Assembly (NCBI GenBank): GCA_024277855.1
Contig: JAJRUJ010000056.1
Location: forward strand, 1 to 34,549
Source: Candidatus Zixiibacteriota bacterium
GTDB taxonomy: Bacteria; Zixibacteria; MSB-5A5; WJJR01; JAJRUJ01
Direction: 5' to 3'
DNA: 34,549 nucleotides
Under the pieces are notes generated by a model that did no database searches, was not told where the DNA came from, and saw only the letters and a list, made by a program, of their open reading frames with translations. This document shows positions 199-7,199 of the stretch, piece by piece (the stretch's first letter is position 1; every line of letters begins with the position of its first letter). A program made the position numbers and the translations under genes.

Positions 199-1194
199 TC
201 AACTTGCGTTTTTGTAGCCCCAGCGAAGGGCCTTGTCGGCATCGTAAAAGCGCTGATTGTTCGTCGGGGCGCCGAGGATGATCGCGGTAATGTCGCGGCC
301 GTTTTTGTCGATCGCGCGCGTGGCCAGACAATAACCCGAGCGCAGGATATATCCGGTCTTGCCGCCGGAAATTTTATGCCGGGAGAAAATCAGCCGGTTG
401 GAGTTGGTCGCCCGGTGACGGCGGCCTTTATTCAACGAGCGATATGAGTACCGCTGCATCGTGGTGATTTCACGGATCAAATCATATTCCAGCGCAGCGT
501 TCAACAATAGCGCACATTCATAGGCGTTGGAAACGTTCTCCTGCGAAAGACCGGTAACCTCCACAAAACGGGTATTCTCCAGCCCGAGGTCTTTGGCCTT
601 TTTGTTCATCAGCCGGACAAATTCCAACTTGGATTTGCCCGAGGCGCGAACCAACGCCCGGGCCGCACGGTTATCCGAGGACATCAAGGCGGCGTGTAAC
701 AAATCGATTGCGACAAATGTCTCGCCGCGCCGCAGGCCGGATTTAGCCGAGTTTTTGGCGTCCTCTTTGGTAATCATGACCAACCGGGTCAGGTCGGGGT
801 CGCAATCGAGATAGACCATCGCGGTCATTAGTTTGCTCAGCGAGGCAATCGCGCGGATTTCGCGTTCGCGCTTGGCGTAGAGAATTGTTCCGTCGGCGTT
901 GTCGACCACCAGCGCGGCGCGGCAACGCAGTGACGGCCGCGTGCGTTTTTTCTGGGAGACTTCCTCATAAACCGACGAATAAATCAACGGCGGCGGTTCG
1001 GGCCGGGGATCGGGAGCATCGCCCATCGCGGTGAGTGTGTCCGCTATCGACCAGAATGCCGGTTCACCCTCGGCATAGTCCACCTTGGGTGTCTGCACCA
1101 ACACGGCAACGAACAGGGCAAACAAGACGGTGAGCAACCCAAGTTTTATTATTTCTCCCTTTTTCATCCTATTAGTGTATATCGGCTCGCGCAC
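199..1194 (-). CDS. D-alanyl-D-alanine carboxypeptidase / endopeptidase (PBP5/PBP7-type, peptidase S11)
   Basis: A penicillin-binding-type serine peptidase that trims or cleaves peptidoglycan stem peptides outside the cytoplasmic membrane. All three active-site motifs of the family are visible: S118-L-S-K121 (nucleophile serine and general base), S173-D-N175, and K279-T-G281. Residues about 17-34 are a hydrophobic segment acting as signal peptide or N-terminal anchor, followed by a proline-rich linker (61-70). At 331 residues without a long C-terminal beta domain it is closer to the short PBP7/PbpG type than to full-length DacA. The GTG at 1194 has a weak AGG 8 bases upstream; an ATG at 1167 (giving MKKGE...) is the alternative and keeps the signal. 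It is last in an apparent operon, 20 bases after the DUF72 gene. The exact substrate bond is not determined by the sequence. Confidence 0.9.
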   Translation of the reverse strand: MREPIYTNRMKKGEIIKLGLLTVLFALFVAVLVQTPKVDYAEGEPAFWSIADTLTAMGDAPDPRPEPPPLIYSSVYEEVSQKKRTRPSLRCRAALVVDNADGTILYAKREREIRAIASLSKLMTAMVYLDCDPDLTRLVMITKEDAKNSAKSGLRRGETFVAIDLLHAALMSSDNRAARALVRASGKSKLEFVRLMNKKAKDLGLENTRFVEVTGLSQENVSNAYECALLLNAALEYDLIREITTMQRYSYRSLNKGRRHRATNSNRLIFSRHKISGGKTGYILRSGYCLATRAIDKNGRDITAIILGAPTNNQRFYDADKALRWGYKNAS

Positions 1195-2127: not shown

Positions 2128-2287
2128 GCCACCCCCGCAACCAAGAAAACCCGTACCCGGCGCGCCGCAATACTTTTTTTGCCGAAGATTGAGACAAAAT
2201 CCCCATAATTTGGCCGGAAATGCCCTTTTCTTTCGGTGATAGGGATTGTACTTTCCACCCCGGAAAACAACGGTAAAGAGAGGAACG

Positions 2288-3553
2288 ATGAGCAAGCTTA
2301 CTTATGGCACAACCGACTCCGCTGAGGCGATGCGCCTGGAACACGAATACGGCGCGCACAACTACCATCCGCTGCCGGTGGTCCTCGCGAAAGGCCGGGG
2401 TATCTACCTTTGGGATCCTGAGGGCAACCGGTACCTCGACTTTCTCTCTGCATACGGCGCAGTCAACCAGGGGCATTGTCACCCGAAAATTGTACAGGCC
2501 TGTCTCGATCAGGCCAAAATTCTCACGCTGACTTCGCGGGCGTTTTTTGCGAACAATCTCGGCGTATGGGAAAAATTTATCACCGAGTTTTTCGGGTTCG
2601 AGATGGTGCTGCCAATGAACACCGGCGCCGAGGCGGTGGAAACTGCGATCAAGCTGGCCCGCCGCTGGGGATATGTGAAAAAGAATATCCCCGATAACCA
2701 GGCGCAGATTGTCACCTGCGCGGGGAATTTCCACGGCCGGACAACGACAATTATCGGTTTTTCGACCGATCCCGATTGCAAAGCCGGATTCGGACCGTTC
2801 ACACCCGGATTTTTGTCTATCCCCTATAACGATCCCGCCGCGCTGGAGACGTTACTTAAAGAAAAAGGTAAAACGATTGCCGGATTCCTTGTCGAGCCGC
2901 TTCAGGGCGAGGCCGGGGTCGCTGTTCCCGATGACGGATACATGAAAAAAGTCAGCGAGATTTGCGAAAAGTATAACGTGTTGCTGATCGCCGATGAAAT
3001 CCAGTCCGGGTTGGCGCGCACCGGGCGGATGCTCTGTTGCGAGTGGGACGATGTTCAGCCCGATGTATTAATCCTCGGCAAGGCACTCACCGGCGGGATT
3101 ATCCCGATGTCTGCGGTGCTGGCGTCCAAAGATATTATGCTGACGATTAAACCGGGTGAGCATGGCAGCACCTATGGCGGAAATCCGCTGGCCTGCGAAA
3201 TCGCGATTGCCGCACTCAGGGTTTTGCGGGATGAGAAACTCGCGGAAAACGCCGACAAGATGGGTGAGATTTTCCGCACCGGTTTGGGAAAAATCGAATC
3301 GCCGCTGATCGAGCTGATTCGCGGACGGGGTTTGATGAACGCAATGATAATCAAACCGCAGGGCGGAATCGAGGCGTGGGATGTCTGCCTTGCGCTGAAA
3401 GACCAGGGGCTGTTGGCCAAACCGACGCACCGGCATATTATCCGGTTCACGCCGCCGTGCATTATCAACGAGAAACAGATCAACGAATCGTTGGGGATGA
3501 TCAAAGCGGCATTCGCGACGCTAAACGAAAAGATTCAACAACCGGTTACTTGA
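2288..3553 (+). CDS. rocD: Ornithine aminotransferase (class III PLP aminotransferase)
   Basis: Transfers the delta-amino group of ornithine to 2-oxoglutarate, giving glutamate semialdehyde (arginine/ornithine catabolism or proline synthesis). The 421 residues match the family. The fold-type I landmarks are in order: GxY-LWDPEGNRYLDF near residue 40, the phosphate-binding NTGAEAVETAIK at 111-122, the cofactor aspartate in ADEIQSGLARTGRM (D236), and the Schiff-base lysine K265 in LILGKALTGG. GSTYGGNPLAC is typical of ornithine aminotransferases rather than of acetylornithine or GABA enzymes. The ATG at 2288 is chosen over an upstream in-frame codon at 2246 because AGAGAGG lies directly before it. 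It is transcribed divergently from the zinc-ribbon/DUF72/carboxypeptidase set and is followed by a good terminator. Confidence 0.93.
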   Translation: MSKLTYGTTDSAEAMRLEHEYGAHNYHPLPVVLAKGRGIYLWDPEGNRYLDFLSAYGAVNQGHCHPKIVQACLDQAKILTLTSRAFFANNLGVWEKFITEFFGFEMVLPMNTGAEAVETAIKLARRWGYVKKNIPDNQAQIVTCAGNFHGRTTTIIGFSTDPDCKAGFGPFTPGFLSIPYNDPAALETLLKEKGKTIAGFLVEPLQGEAGVAVPDDGYMKKVSEICEKYNVLLIADEIQSGLARTGRMLCCEWDDVQPDVLILGKALTGGIIPMSAVLASKDIMLTIKPGEHGSTYGGNPLACEIAIAALRVLRDEKLAENADKMGEIFRTGLGKIESPLIELIRGRGLMNAMIIKPQGGIEAWDVCLALKDQGLLAKPTHRHIIRFTPPCIINEKQINESLGMIKAAFATLNEKIQQPVT

Positions 3554-3780: not shown

Positions 3781-3828
3781 CCATCCACCACGGCGGACCT
3801 GCGCCATTTGAGGTGTGGGACACCGGCA
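3781..3828 (-). repeat. Interspersed repeat, copy inverted relative to 7141-7190
   Basis: Read on the minus strand, this stretch contains CCCACACCTCAAATGGC, which is found again on the plus strand at 7152-7168. Similarity continues on both sides (GCCGG before it, CAGG and a GGTGG-type run after it). The two copies face each other across the dead transposase and the 4345-7199 cassette. A more distant relative, on the plus strand, is at 9062-9104. Confidence 0.65.
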
Positions 3829-3840
3829 GATTCTTCCTGC

Positions 3841-3865
3841 CCCCCCAAACAAGTTTGGGCGGGCC
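3841..3865. repeat. CAAGTTTG-core repeat, copy 2
   Basis: CCCCAAACAAGTTTGGGCGG within a longer near-palindrome, followed by GGCC. It matches the copies at 148-170 and 26701-26724. GC-rich CCGGGGTCTGTGACCCCGG follows at about 3886-3905. Confidence 0.55.
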
Positions 3866-3962
3866 ATACATACCTCGCACTGTGTGGCCGGGGTCTGTGA
3901 CCCCGGTTCGCATAGCGAATATTTCGATCCCTACATTAAAATAAACCCCGACCAAGGTCAGC

Positions 3963-4330
3963 CACCCGGCGTTGTATCAAGCGCTGGGCCGACGTATTGT
4001 GCGCCCGGGATTGTTGTGCCACTCGGATCGGAGGAGCCAATATGCCGCAGAAGCCTATCAACGGCTGCTCAGGCGTCACGTATCACTGTCATCAAGAGTC
4101 GGGAAGGCAACCGCTGGCACAACGCGGTGGTGGGGAGCTTTTTTGCGACGCTGAAAACCGAACTGGTGCGCGAGGAAACGTTCCTGATCCGACAGGAGGT
4201 GCGAATGAAGGTTCTCGATTAGATTGAGGTGTATTATGACCGGGAACACCGTTACTCAACGCTGGGCTATAAAAGCCTCGTTGAATTCGAAAACGCAGTG
4301 AGTCATCTTAATACCGCGTCCATTATTTGA
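3963..4330 (+). pseudogene. Remnant of an IS3-family transposase (orfB, rve integrase C-terminal part)
   Basis: Only the C-terminal third of an IS3-type DDE integrase remains, in two frames. The first frame (about 3963-4080) reads ALYQALGRR... then CHSDRRSQYAAEAYQRLLRR, the region around the second catalytic aspartate. A frameshift near 4080 leads into GNRWHNAVVGSFFATLKTEL, where the catalytic glutamate of the usual VVESFF motif is replaced by glycine. An in-frame TAG at 4220-4222 interrupts this frame before IEVYYDREHRYSTLGYKS, the usual C-terminal motif, and the final stop is at 4328. The upstream orfA, the first aspartate and recognisable terminal inverted repeats are missing. It is inactive and marks past insertion next to the cassette at 4345. 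Confidence 0.85.
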
Positions 4331-4344
4331 GGAAAGATCAATCC

Positions 4345-5427
4345 ATGATAGCAAGAGCATTGGTATATTGCGAAAATGAATTTGGAAAGATAGACGGTAA
4401 GGTTGCAAACGGACTTGCCCGGCACTCCGAGAAGTATGATATCCTCGGTGTGATAGATAGCACGAAGGCTGGTCTTGATACGGGAGAATATCTTGATGGA
4501 ATAAAAAAAGGGATCCCGGTATTCTCAAGTACAAGTGATGCCATCGAAAAACTGGGCTTTGTTCCGGAATATTTCATCTATGGTATTGCGTCACAGGCAG
4601 CATATCTTGACCCGGAACAGAGACAGGTAATCTTAGCGGCTATGAAAACGGGGATGAACTTCGTCAATGGCCTACCGGAATTTTTCACCGAAGATGAAGA
4701 ATTTATCCGAAAGGCGATCCAATACAGGGTCCATATCTATGATATGAGAAAAGCTCCTCTGAGAAAGTATCTGCATAATTTCTCAGGACGCATCCATGAA
4801 GTCACAATTCCGGTAATAGCAGTGCTTGGTACAGACTGCGCCGTTGGCAAAAGGACAACTGCGATAAGTATAGTTGAGGCCTTGAAACAGGTGGGACTGA
4901 ACCCGGCATTTATAACAACGGGGCAAACCGGTCTACTTCAGGGAGGGAAGTATGGTATTGCTGTGGATGTTTTATCTTCCGGTTTTGCGACAGGAGCAGT
5001 TGAAAATGCGATTATAAATGCCTATGAAAAAGAGCACGCGGATATTATTGTTGTTGAGGGACAGGGCGCCCTGAGCCATCCTGCATATACATCTTCAAGC
5101 GCTATCGTAAGAGGATCAGCGCCCGATGCAATTATTCTTCAGCACCCACCAAAAAGAAAGAACCATTGCGATTATCCCGATATACCCATGCCCACACTTG
5201 AAAGCGAAATCGAATTGATAGAAATATTCTCCCAATCGAAGGTAATTGCCATCACAATTAACCATGAAGACATGACTGACGCTGAAGTAAGAAACACAAT
5301 AGTTGAGTATGAATCCAAAAAGGGACTACCAACTACAGATGTCTTAAAGTTTGGATGTGATAAACTTGTTAACACGCTATTCACGCTTTTTCCGGAACTG
5401 CAAAAGAAAGCCTCCACAATATGCTAA
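4345..5427 (+). CDS. DUF1611 family protein (DgcN-like, putative D-amino acid N-acyltransferase)
   Basis: A 360-residue DUF1611/COG3367 protein. Visible features are a Rossmann-like N-terminal part (residues 30-80, with the IYGIA segment), a nucleotide-binding-like loop GTDCAVGKRTT at 162-172 beginning the C-terminal domain, then TTGQTGLLQGG (191-201) and VVEGQGALSHPAY (236-248), all typical of the family. One member, DgcN, has been described as a D-glutamate N-acetyltransferase; whether this protein shares that substrate is unknown. The ATG at 4345 is preceded by GAGGAAAG at suitable spacing, and upstream in-frame codons lie in the transposase remnant. Its stop overlaps the next start by 7 bases (ATGCTAA). 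Codon use and base composition are clearly more AT-rich than the surrounding genes, suggesting transfer. With the racemase/dipeptidase fusion it likely acts on D-amino acids released from cell-wall peptides. Confidence 0.82.
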   Translation: MIARALVYCENEFGKIDGKVANGLARHSEKYDILGVIDSTKAGLDTGEYLDGIKKGIPVFSSTSDAIEKLGFVPEYFIYGIASQAAYLDPEQRQVILAAMKTGMNFVNGLPEFFTEDEEFIRKAIQYRVHIYDMRKAPLRKYLHNFSGRIHEVTIPVIAVLGTDCAVGKRTTAISIVEALKQVGLNPAFITTGQTGLLQGGKYGIAVDVLSSGFATGAVENAIINAYEKEHADIIVVEGQGALSHPAYTSSSAIVRGSAPDAIILQHPPKRKNHCDYPDIPMPTLESEIELIEIFSQSKVIAITINHEDMTDAEVRNTIVEYESKKGLPTTDVLKFGCDKLVNTLFTLFPELQKKASTIC

Positions 5428-7199
5428 CCCCGAGAATAGAGATAGACCTTGAGAAAATTGCCCATAATGCCAAAGTGTTAAAAGACCTATATGGTTCAAG
5501 GGGCATTGATGTTATCGGCGTGACAAAAGTGGTTTGCGGAAACCCTGATGTCGCGAAAGCTTTGGTGAAAAGCGGGATAAGCATTCTTGCAGATTCCAGG
5601 ATAGAGAATATCAGAAAGATGCGTAATGCCGGCGTGCAAGCCCAATTTCTCTTACTGAGAACACCCTGTCTTAGTCAAGCCAAAGCCGTTGTAAAATATG
5701 CTGATATTAGCCTCAACACCGAACTTTCAGTCATCGAAAGACTCTCAGAGTATGCCATTGATTACGATAGCCCCCATAAAATTATATTAATGGTGGAACT
5801 GGGAGATTTAAGAGAAGGGCTGATGCCATCAGATTTAGATAACACCATCAAACACGTATTAGACCTTGAGTACATTGAGCTTATCGGCATTGGAACAAAC
5901 CTGGCCTGTTTTGGCGGGGTCAAACCCGATGATGAAAAAATGGGATATTTGTCTGCAACCGCCAACGATGTTGAAAATAAATATGGGTTGACATTAGAGT
6001 TTGTTTCCGGTGGTAACTCTGCCAACTATAATTGGTTTATGTCTACAAAAGATGTTGGGAGAATCAATAACCTGCGACTGGGTGAATCAATCTATTTGGG
6101 CTGTGAAACCCTTTATCGTCAACCCATCCCCGGGCTGTACACCGATGCGATGACACTCGTTTCGGAAGTTATCGAATCAAAAATGAAGCCATCTGTGCCA
6201 TATGGAGAAGTCTGTCAGGATGCATTTGGAAATATTCCAGAGTTTAAAGACCAGGGCCAAATAAGAAGAGCTATCCTGGGTGTTGGATTACAGGATGTTC
6301 TGGTTTCCGGATTGACTCCCCGATTAGATATTGAAATCATCGGGGCAAGCAGTGACCACATCATTGTTGATGCGAAGAATATAGACGTAAACGTAGGAAA
6401 CGAAGTAGAATTTGATCTGAATTACGGAGCCTTACTCTCAGCTATGACTTCTCTATATGTAAACAAAGTATCCAGTGATCAACTGAATGCCCAAGAGTAT
6501 TGCGAAATGGTTGAACAAAAATATCGCAAGCATATGCAAGATCTGCCAACTATTTCAATTAAAGAAGATCATTCTCCATTAATTAGTCTGAACGAGTCTG
6601 GGTTTAATTTAATATTTGAACCGTCGATTATAAAAGATTACAAGTATATGGTCAGGGAAGCTGTTTTTGATAAAATCGGACGGATAAGCAAACGTTTGGA
6701 AAATGAAGACAAAACATTAATAATTCGTTCGGCATGGCGGTCTTTCGAACATCAACGGCTTTTATGGGAAGAAAGGGTAGATTCTTTGAAGAAAGAATAC
6801 CCTAAAAAACAAATAGAAGAAATTGAAGAGCTCGTTTCATATTTTATTGCCCCGCCGAGTAAATCCATGCATTCAACAGGTGGGGCTGTGGACGCTCTTA
6901 TTTATGATTTGAAGAATGATTGCGTTATGCGTTTTGGAACGAATGATGGACTAAAAATGAACCTTAATGACAAATGTTACCCGTATCATCCTTATATCAC
7001 ACCCGAAGCGAAAAACAATCGGAAGTTACTGATCGGTCTCTTCGAAGAAGAGGATTTTGCAGTGGACATAAAAGAGTACTGGCATTTTGATTATGGAAAT
7101 GTGAGTTGGGCTATCGAAACAGGAAAAGAACATGCGATATATGGCCGGGTAGCCCACACCTCAAATGGCACAGGCCTTCCAGGTGGGTTTCTTTATTGA
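5421..7199 (+). CDS. Fusion: ornithine/alanine-racemase-type PLP domain + VanX-like D-Ala-D-Ala dipeptidase (M15D) domain
   Basis: This 592-residue protein has two enzymes in one chain. Residues 1 to about 355 are a fold-type III PLP enzyme like ornithine/alanine racemases (YhfX/Orr branch): IEIDLEKIAHNAK at the start, the cofactor lysine in GVTKVVCG (K36), ELGDLREG at 126-133, GIGTNLACFGG, SGGNSANY and RLGESIYLG. Residues about 385-575 match D-Ala-D-Ala dipeptidases: IRSAWR (435-440), the zinc motif S482-M-H484-S-T-G-G-A-V-D491, and E552-Y-W-H555, supplying the zinc ligands and catalytic glutamate. Presumed chemistry is zinc-dependent cleavage of D,D-dipeptides plus racemisation of the product; this is inference. 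No signal peptide is seen, so it is cytoplasmic. The last roughly 15 residues (HTSNGTGLPGGF) are encoded by an intergenic repeat, so the native C-terminus was probably replaced. Confidence 0.85.
   Translation: MLTPRIEIDLEKIAHNAKVLKDLYGSRGIDVIGVTKVVCGNPDVAKALVKSGISILADSRIENIRKMRNAGVQAQFLLLRTPCLSQAKAVVKYADISLNTELSVIERLSEYAIDYDSPHKIILMVELGDLREGLMPSDLDNTIKHVLDLEYIELIGIGTNLACFGGVKPDDEKMGYLSATANDVENKYGLTLEFVSGGNSANYNWFMSTKDVGRINNLRLGESIYLGCETLYRQPIPGLYTDAMTLVSEVIESKMKPSVPYGEVCQDAFGNIPEFKDQGQIRRAILGVGLQDVLVSGLTPRLDIEIIGASSDHIIVDAKNIDVNVGNEVEFDLNYGALLSAMTSLYVNKVSSDQLNAQEYCEMVEQKYRKHMQDLPTISIKEDHSPLISLNESGFNLIFEPSIIKDYKYMVREAVFDKIGRISKRLENEDKTLIIRSAWRSFEHQRLLWEERVDSLKKEYPKKQIEEIEELVSYFIAPPSKSMHSTGGAVDALIYDLKNDCVMRFGTNDGLKMNLNDKCYPYHPYITPEAKNNRKLLIGLFEEEDFAVDIKEYWHFDYGNVSWAIETGKEHAIYGRVAHTSNGTGLPGGFLY
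7141..7190 (+). repeat. Interspersed repeat forming the 3' end of the fusion gene
   Basis: Contains CCCACACCTCAAATGGC at 7152-7168, matching the minus strand of 3805-3821, followed by CAGGCC and a GGTGGG run as in the other copy. It is read through in frame as the C-terminus of the upstream gene. Confidence 0.65.

Follow-up and report, generated by a model that had tools for sequence, protein, structure and literature searches.

The contig JAJRUJ010000056.1 of a Candidatus Zixiibacteriota genome (assembly GCA_024277855.1), analysed here over its whole length of 34,549 nucleotides and called the window in what follows, carries a two-gene cassette in which a DUF1611 protein is coupled to a fusion of a pyridoxal phosphate (PLP) dependent racemase and a VanX-like M15 peptidase. 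The coordinates of its features are collected in Table 1. A first-pass annotation, made from the nucleotide sequence alone, had described these two genes as overlapping by 7 bases and had assigned the three domains; the open reading frames bear out the overlap, and a TTG at 4327 is a possible alternative start of the DUF1611 gene. The domain assignments were correct as well, given the Pfam matches, the intact active-site residues, the alignment with the zinc site of VanX and a predicted fold for which VanX is the first match. The linker of the fusion is situated where most relatives have the stop codon of the racemase, followed by a separate start codon for the M15 protein. The fold of the whole fusion was predicted from an alignment without plasmid-derived rows and, the model being modest (pLDDT 71, pTM 0.55), the arrangement of its domains was not interpreted.

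Table 1. Features of the cassette and of its upstream flank (positions in the window).
Feature	Position	Strand	Description
Inverted repeat, left arm	3798..3824	+	27 nt; 89% complementary to 7148-7174
Degenerate IS3-like transposase remnant	3815..4330	+	Integrase-core fragment; Pfam rve_3 E=5e-4, under its cutoff
DUF1611 protein gene	4345..5427	+	360 aa; ATG 4345, stop codon end 5427; open reading frame analysis
P-loop GTDCAVGKRTT of DUF1611 protein	4828-4860	+	Residues 162-172; alignment
Racemase-M15 fusion gene	5421..7199	+	592 aa; start ATG 5421
Overlap of DUF1611 stop region with fusion start	5421..5427	+	7 bp; translational coupling
Racemase half of fusion	5421..6470	+	Residues 1-350; PLP fold-III, ornithine racemase (Orr) family
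Linker of fusion	6471..6542	+	Comparison of fused and split loci
M15 peptidase half of fusion	6543..7196	+	Residues ~375-592; VanX-like; Pfam, fold search, VanX alignment
Inverted repeat, right arm	7148..7174	-	Inside last codons of fusion

DUF1611 proteins are common. The one encoded in the cassette has a Rossmann-like N-terminal domain and a C-terminal P-loop domain, and its Pfam matches (DUF1611_N, PF17396, 63.5 bits; DUF1611 P-loop domain, PF07755, 226 bits) are both above the gathering score. Its relatives in the PDB are 2g0t, 2obn and 7xrj. The P-loop and an EGQG-LSHPA motif are retained in its alignment with DgcN and with plasmid homologues. Because the identity to DgcN is 29% and the score with the NCBIfam DgcN model (NF041892) is 160.6 bits, below the equivalog cutoff of 480, we can only infer N-acetylation by this protein. 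A true dgcNA operon was seen for comparison, and no DgcA-type epimerase gene is adjacent to the DUF1611 gene of the window.

The racemase half matches Ala_racemase_N in Pfam (87 bits, residues 8-226) and the NCBIfam model racem_Orr (NF040742) with 405.9 bits over residues 4-350, below its equivalog cutoff of 480, while the alanine racemase model of NCBIfam gives 37 bits, far under the Orr score. It is collinear over its full length with the Orr of the Acetoanaerobium ornithine-degradation operon (L102), with 42% identity, and the PLP lysine K36 (bases 5526-5528) is invariant across 13 racemases including that Orr. Alanine racemases were the best matches in a PDB fold search with the racemase model. 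By sequence, the racemase half groups with ornithine racemase and not with alanine racemase; the PLP racemase assignment of the first-pass annotation stands, and the type is corrected to full-length Orr-like. Basic amino acids are suggested as substrates of the racemase family by the Acetoanaerobium operon and by a racemase of Shinella and Roseateles (L110:9001-10788, L111:6001-7788), in which an Orr-like domain is fused to an arginase-family domain within an arginine-degradation operon that also holds a D-amino-acid dehydrogenase and a 5-guanidino-2-oxopentanoate decarboxylase. Both kinds of operon are plainly catabolic. A search with PF16552 (ornithine aminomutase, OraS/OraE) gave no match in the window, in the rest of the genome or in control genomes. 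The class of organisms to which the window belongs also has an Orr-like racemase of lower similarity (~35% identity; L005:953-3785), whose operon includes genes for a GNAT acetyltransferase and an M20 peptidase; this is an acyltransferase-racemase-peptidase set assembled from other families.

The M15 half is weakly recognized by sequence, with Pfam scores of 33 bits (VanY) and 29.5 bits (Peptidase_M15) over fusion residues ~411-560 and an NCBIfam VanX score (NF033115) of 29.3 bits, below the cutoff of 320. Its predicted structure (pLDDT 85) places VanX (1r44) first in a Foldseek search of the PDB, with E=1.4e-9 and TM-scores of 0.61/0.67. VanX was also picked up among PDB sequences by single-sequence phmmer, whereas a profile built from the M15 alignment had no hit among them at E<0.01. 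The zinc ligands are H484, D491 and H555, with E552 as the base and R436/R440 for substrate binding, and the stretches SMHSTGGAVD and EYWH of the cassette align with SSHSRGSAID and EWWH of VanX. Across 44 M15 relatives there is no variation at D491, E552, H555, R436 and R440, and almost none at H484. The earlier proposal to verify the catalytic residues has thus a positive answer in both halves of the fusion. In one relative (L024:1239-1916) the first histidine of the zinc site is replaced by glutamine (SMQSTGG), which may reflect loss of activity in this copy or a fault in the assembly.

The first-pass annotation had also asked whether the pair and the fusion recur in other genomes, and they do. 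With the fusion as query, a scan in which each species was represented by a single genome returned 80 loci, whose partners were determined by open reading frame analysis. DUF1611 is directly upstream of the racemase in 71 of them, and M15 is present in 63, the remaining loci being mostly cut by a contig end, archaeal or of a type that has no M15. Racemase and M15 form one open reading frame in 28 loci (29 counting the window) and two in 35, usually a few bases apart or overlapping. The DUF1611 and racemase genes of relatives overlap mostly by 1-25 bp, 4 bp being the commonest value. The collinear order DUF1611-racemase-M15, usually as three coupled genes, is found in at least 10 phyla, and since it is repeated in dozens of genomes we do not consider the arrangement a product of chance. 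It had been presented as an unfamiliar combination of three functions; the arrangement is real, and it is widespread rather than special to this genome.

The maximum-likelihood phylogeny of the racemase domain requires four changes for the fused state, and at least two of them are imposed by branches with strong support; hence, the racemase-M15 fusion is recurrent. The fused clade of the window includes Cloacimonadota, Electryoneota, Bacteroidota, Planctomycetota and Fidelibacterota. Variants of the cassette also exist. The DUF1611-racemase pair is found without M15 in Bacillaceae and on plasmids of Vibrio, Phaeobacter, Ruegeria and Aliiroseovarius. In three Heimdallarchaeota bins (L047:4989-5990, L048:4983-5990, L053:4974-5990), whose racemase is 76-78% identical to that of the window, a Ddl-like ATP-grasp gene, and not DUF1611, directly precedes the racemase. 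These loci are an apparent transfer between bacteria and archaea with a swapped partner, in which a bond-forming enzyme takes the place of DUF1611.

In the genome under study the cassette has been recently acquired from another phylum. The GC content at third codon positions is 0.40 for DUF1611, 0.41 for the racemase and 0.34 for M15, against 0.62-0.70 in the seven surrounding genes, an IS3-like remnant abuts the cassette upstream, and, out of 132 genomes examined in the phylum, this one alone has the M15 type of the window; these three observations mark it as foreign. None of 98 relatives carries the racemase-M15 fusion, and two of them carry DUF1611-racemase alone, ~50% identical. Close relatives are rare in Flavobacteriales too, a DUF1611 near the window type being present in 1 of 296 genomes. 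The frame of the IS3-like remnant has an in-frame stop and continues past it into IEVYYDREHRYSTLGYKSLVEFE. The two arms of the inverted repeat bracket the remnant and the cassette; 0.01 occurrences of the repeat core would be expected by chance in the window, and its 17-nt core has five copies in the genome at ≤1 mismatch, compared with 0 for a reversed-pattern control. Homology of the fusion to its relatives stops near residue 575, and part of the non-conserved C-terminal tail is explained by the right arm lying inside the last codons.

Other origins were considered and rejected. Contamination of the bin is a less simple explanation than insertion, since the low-GC cassette lies within one contig with ~55% GC on either side. 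A phage origin was discarded, there being just two weak matches to unannotated phage records, both to the racemase half, and a role in anti-phage defence was discarded because PADLOC gave no match for the DUF1611 protein or the fusion. An ornithine aminotransferase gene lies upstream at 2246-3553, and a functional tie to it is tempting given the Orr-like racemase. We take this adjacency as a coincidence, because the gap of ~790 bp contains the transposase remnant and the pairing was seen in none of the relatives inspected. A D-Ala-D-Ala carboxypeptidase gene (Peptidase_S11, 199-1194, minus strand), 3 kb upstream of the cassette and with host-like GC, is probably unrelated to it.

The neighbourhoods of relatives provide a further line of evidence. 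Twenty Bacteroidota regions of 20 kb were set against 40 control regions taken from the contigs on which they lie. The regions, with controls in second place, contained a small AraC regulator (20 vs 1), a cupin (18 vs 0), CspA (12 vs 1), an SPFH protein (10 vs 0), a fatty-acid desaturase (8 vs 0), a sigma factor (7 vs 0) and GroES (5 vs 0). In flavobacteria (L126-L132, L136-L138) the neighbourhood of the trio is conserved with a variable gene order, and its members are the sigma factor, small AraC, cupin, SPFH, an 85-aa membrane protein, CspA and the desaturase. Stress genes are also found near the DUF1611-racemase pair on plasmids: GroESL and Hsp20 in Vibrio europaeus, GroESL and Crp/Fnr in Phaeobacter, HflKC and a desaturase in Ruegeria, and NhaA and HflKC in Vibrio parahaemolyticus. 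Vibrio coralliilyticus has DUF1611 alone, followed by HflKC, and Roseibium has a racemase fragment near HflKC, CspA and a universal stress protein. On Roseobacter plasmids (L101:6226-7719, L103:6191-7700, L109:6185-7759) the stretch just before DUF1611 repeatedly holds three uncharacterised genes, of which the third matches Pfam EGF_MSP1_1; the other two, where tested, could not be assigned to a family.

From these data we tentatively propose, with somewhat less than even confidence, that the two genes form a D-amino-acid module which moves by horizontal transfer and combines three activities, its role being more likely stress adaptation than nutrient salvage. The class of chemistry is fairly secure, as it rests on conserved active sites. 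The substrate of the Orr-type racemase, which would be interconverted between its L and D forms, is most likely a basic amino acid (ornithine, lysine or arginine). The DUF1611 protein would conjugate the D-amino acid, either N-acylating it in the way of the distantly related DgcN or joining it through a dipeptide-like bond; the Ddl-like replacement in Heimdallarchaeota hints at amide formation. Acting in the cytoplasm, the fused VanX-like domain could hydrolyse a small dipeptide or conjugate of a D-amino acid and give the latter back to the racemase, so that the fusion would place release and racemization on one polypeptide. The product may be protective as a free metabolite, or it may be a precursor for the wall.

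Several observations weigh against a stress module. The window and its closest relatives (L012-L019, L044) have no adjoining stress gene, the cassette travelling alone; the Bacillaceae neighbourhoods present no consistent stress link, and the plasmid copies L108, L109 and L117 have no stress neighbour. The versions without M15 in Bacillaceae and on plasmids indicate that this activity is not always needed. Moreover, the markers of the enrichment were picked after part of the same neighbourhoods had been seen, many of the cases share ancestry, and an accumulation of stress genes may be no more than a general property of genomic islands. If this last point is taken to its end, the cassette would be a mobile passenger with a generic role in D-amino-acid housekeeping or detoxification, which agrees with its mobility, its variable flanks and the lack of stress neighbours in the clade of the window. 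We think that this is improbable, as HflKC/SPFH and GroESL recur independently in Bacteroidota, Vibrio and Rhodobacterales and are almost absent from the 40 control regions.

Two further roles have to be weighed against stress adaptation. Salvage of peptidoglycan fragments was among the candidate roles named in the first-pass annotation: M15 would split imported D-dipeptides from peptidoglycan, the racemase would convert D into L forms for catabolism, and DUF1611 would N-acetylate the residual D-amino acid like DgcN. The VanX-like fold and the catabolic operons of other racemase-family members fit such a scheme, as does DgcN, cited in PMC12363236 as the key gene of a D-glutamate pathway and forming with DgcA a D-glutamate catabolic pair. 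However, no transporter, deacylase or catabolic gene recurs beside the trio among the neighbourhoods inspected, unlike in the DgcN, Orr and Shinella operons, the epimerase partner is missing, and the genes that do recur are stress genes; we therefore regard salvage as unlikely, and as a main role the recovery of peptidoglycan or D-Ala-D-Ala is not supported. Remodelling of the wall in the manner of vanC/vanG, in which the racemase gives an alternative D-amino acid, D-Ala-D-Ala is removed by the VanX-like domain, and the ligase that leads to modified peptidoglycan ends under envelope stress is DUF1611 (in the archaea, the ATP-grasp enzyme), draws on the weak similarity of the two halves to VanT and VanX/VanXY models, on VanX as the closest fold and on the Ddl-like partner in Heimdallarchaeota. 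Nevertheless, DUF1611 is not an ATP-grasp ligase, murein is thought to be absent from Heimdallarchaeota, many versions have no M15 and resistance regulators are lacking. The genome has a single clear Ddl (202 bits), its other matches scoring 36-47 bits, and a D-Ala-D-X ATP-grasp ligase is absent from the window, the genome matches being on other contigs. This makes wall remodelling improbable in our opinion.

We know of no described function for the DUF1611-racemase-M15 set, and no paper was found that describes DUF1611 with Orr-type racemase and VanX-like peptidase partners; in the literature searched, the name DUF1611 turns up in just two papers, neither of them related. Among the papers found, DgcN is the only DUF1611 branch cited with a characterised role (PMC12363236). 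The profile scores stay under the equivalog cutoffs of the DgcN (161 vs 480 bits), Orr (406 vs 480) and VanX (29 vs 320) models, so the cassette cannot be assigned to any of the three; it resembles parts of each. A broader proposal, which we consider doubtful, is that DUF1611 with an Orr-type racemase, and in some cases a VanX-like peptidase, is an undescribed stress module, carried by plasmids and islands, for making and recycling a D-amino-acid conjugate, as a new protective metabolite or a wall modification, in Bacteroidota, Proteobacteria, Bacillota and several candidate phyla, and in Asgard archaea with a Ddl-like enzyme for DUF1611. A second DUF1611 branch, tied to fixed partners across many phyla and to stress genes, offers a testable pathway. 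The use of VanX-like dipeptidases and Orr-like racemases beyond antibiotic resistance and clostridial fermentation also bears on the annotation of such genes.

Comparison with known systems helps in placing the cassette. As in the dgcR-dgcN-dgcA operon of Pseudoalteromonas sp. CF6-2, a DUF1611 P-loop protein gene overlaps or adjoins a racemase or epimerase gene, and the P-loop and EGQG-LSHPA motifs are common to both; however, DgcA is an enolase-superfamily epimerase whereas the partner here is a PLP racemase, and the cassette adds an M15 peptidase and has no dgcR. The islands described in a review of the transmissible locus of stress tolerance (tLST) are mobile and hold small heat-shock, membrane-proteostasis and antiporter genes (PMC8290217), as found around relatives of the cassette, but their dna-hsp20-clpG core is not found among the annotated open reading frames of the window, and the review makes no mention of racemase, DUF1611, GroEL or HflK (PMC8290217). 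VanX and VanXY share the fold and the zinc and catalytic residues with the M15 half, which differs in being joined to a racemase and in having neither a VanH/VanA-type ligase nor VanRS. In vanC/vanG-type sets (VanT, VanXY and a ligase) a racemase and a D,D-dipeptidase also share one operon, whereas the racemase of the cassette is soluble and Orr-type, DUF1611 replaces the ATP-grasp ligase, and gene order and fusion differ. The Orr of the clostridial ornithine pathway has full-length collinearity, K36 and the C-terminal motifs in common with the cassette racemase, but the window has no ord, ort or ora genes and the partners are DUF1611 and M15. Finally, the racemase-arginase fusion of Shinella and Roseateles likewise joins an Orr-like racemase to a hydrolase of amino-acid derivatives, the difference being that its hydrolase belongs to the arginase family and its operon is catabolic.

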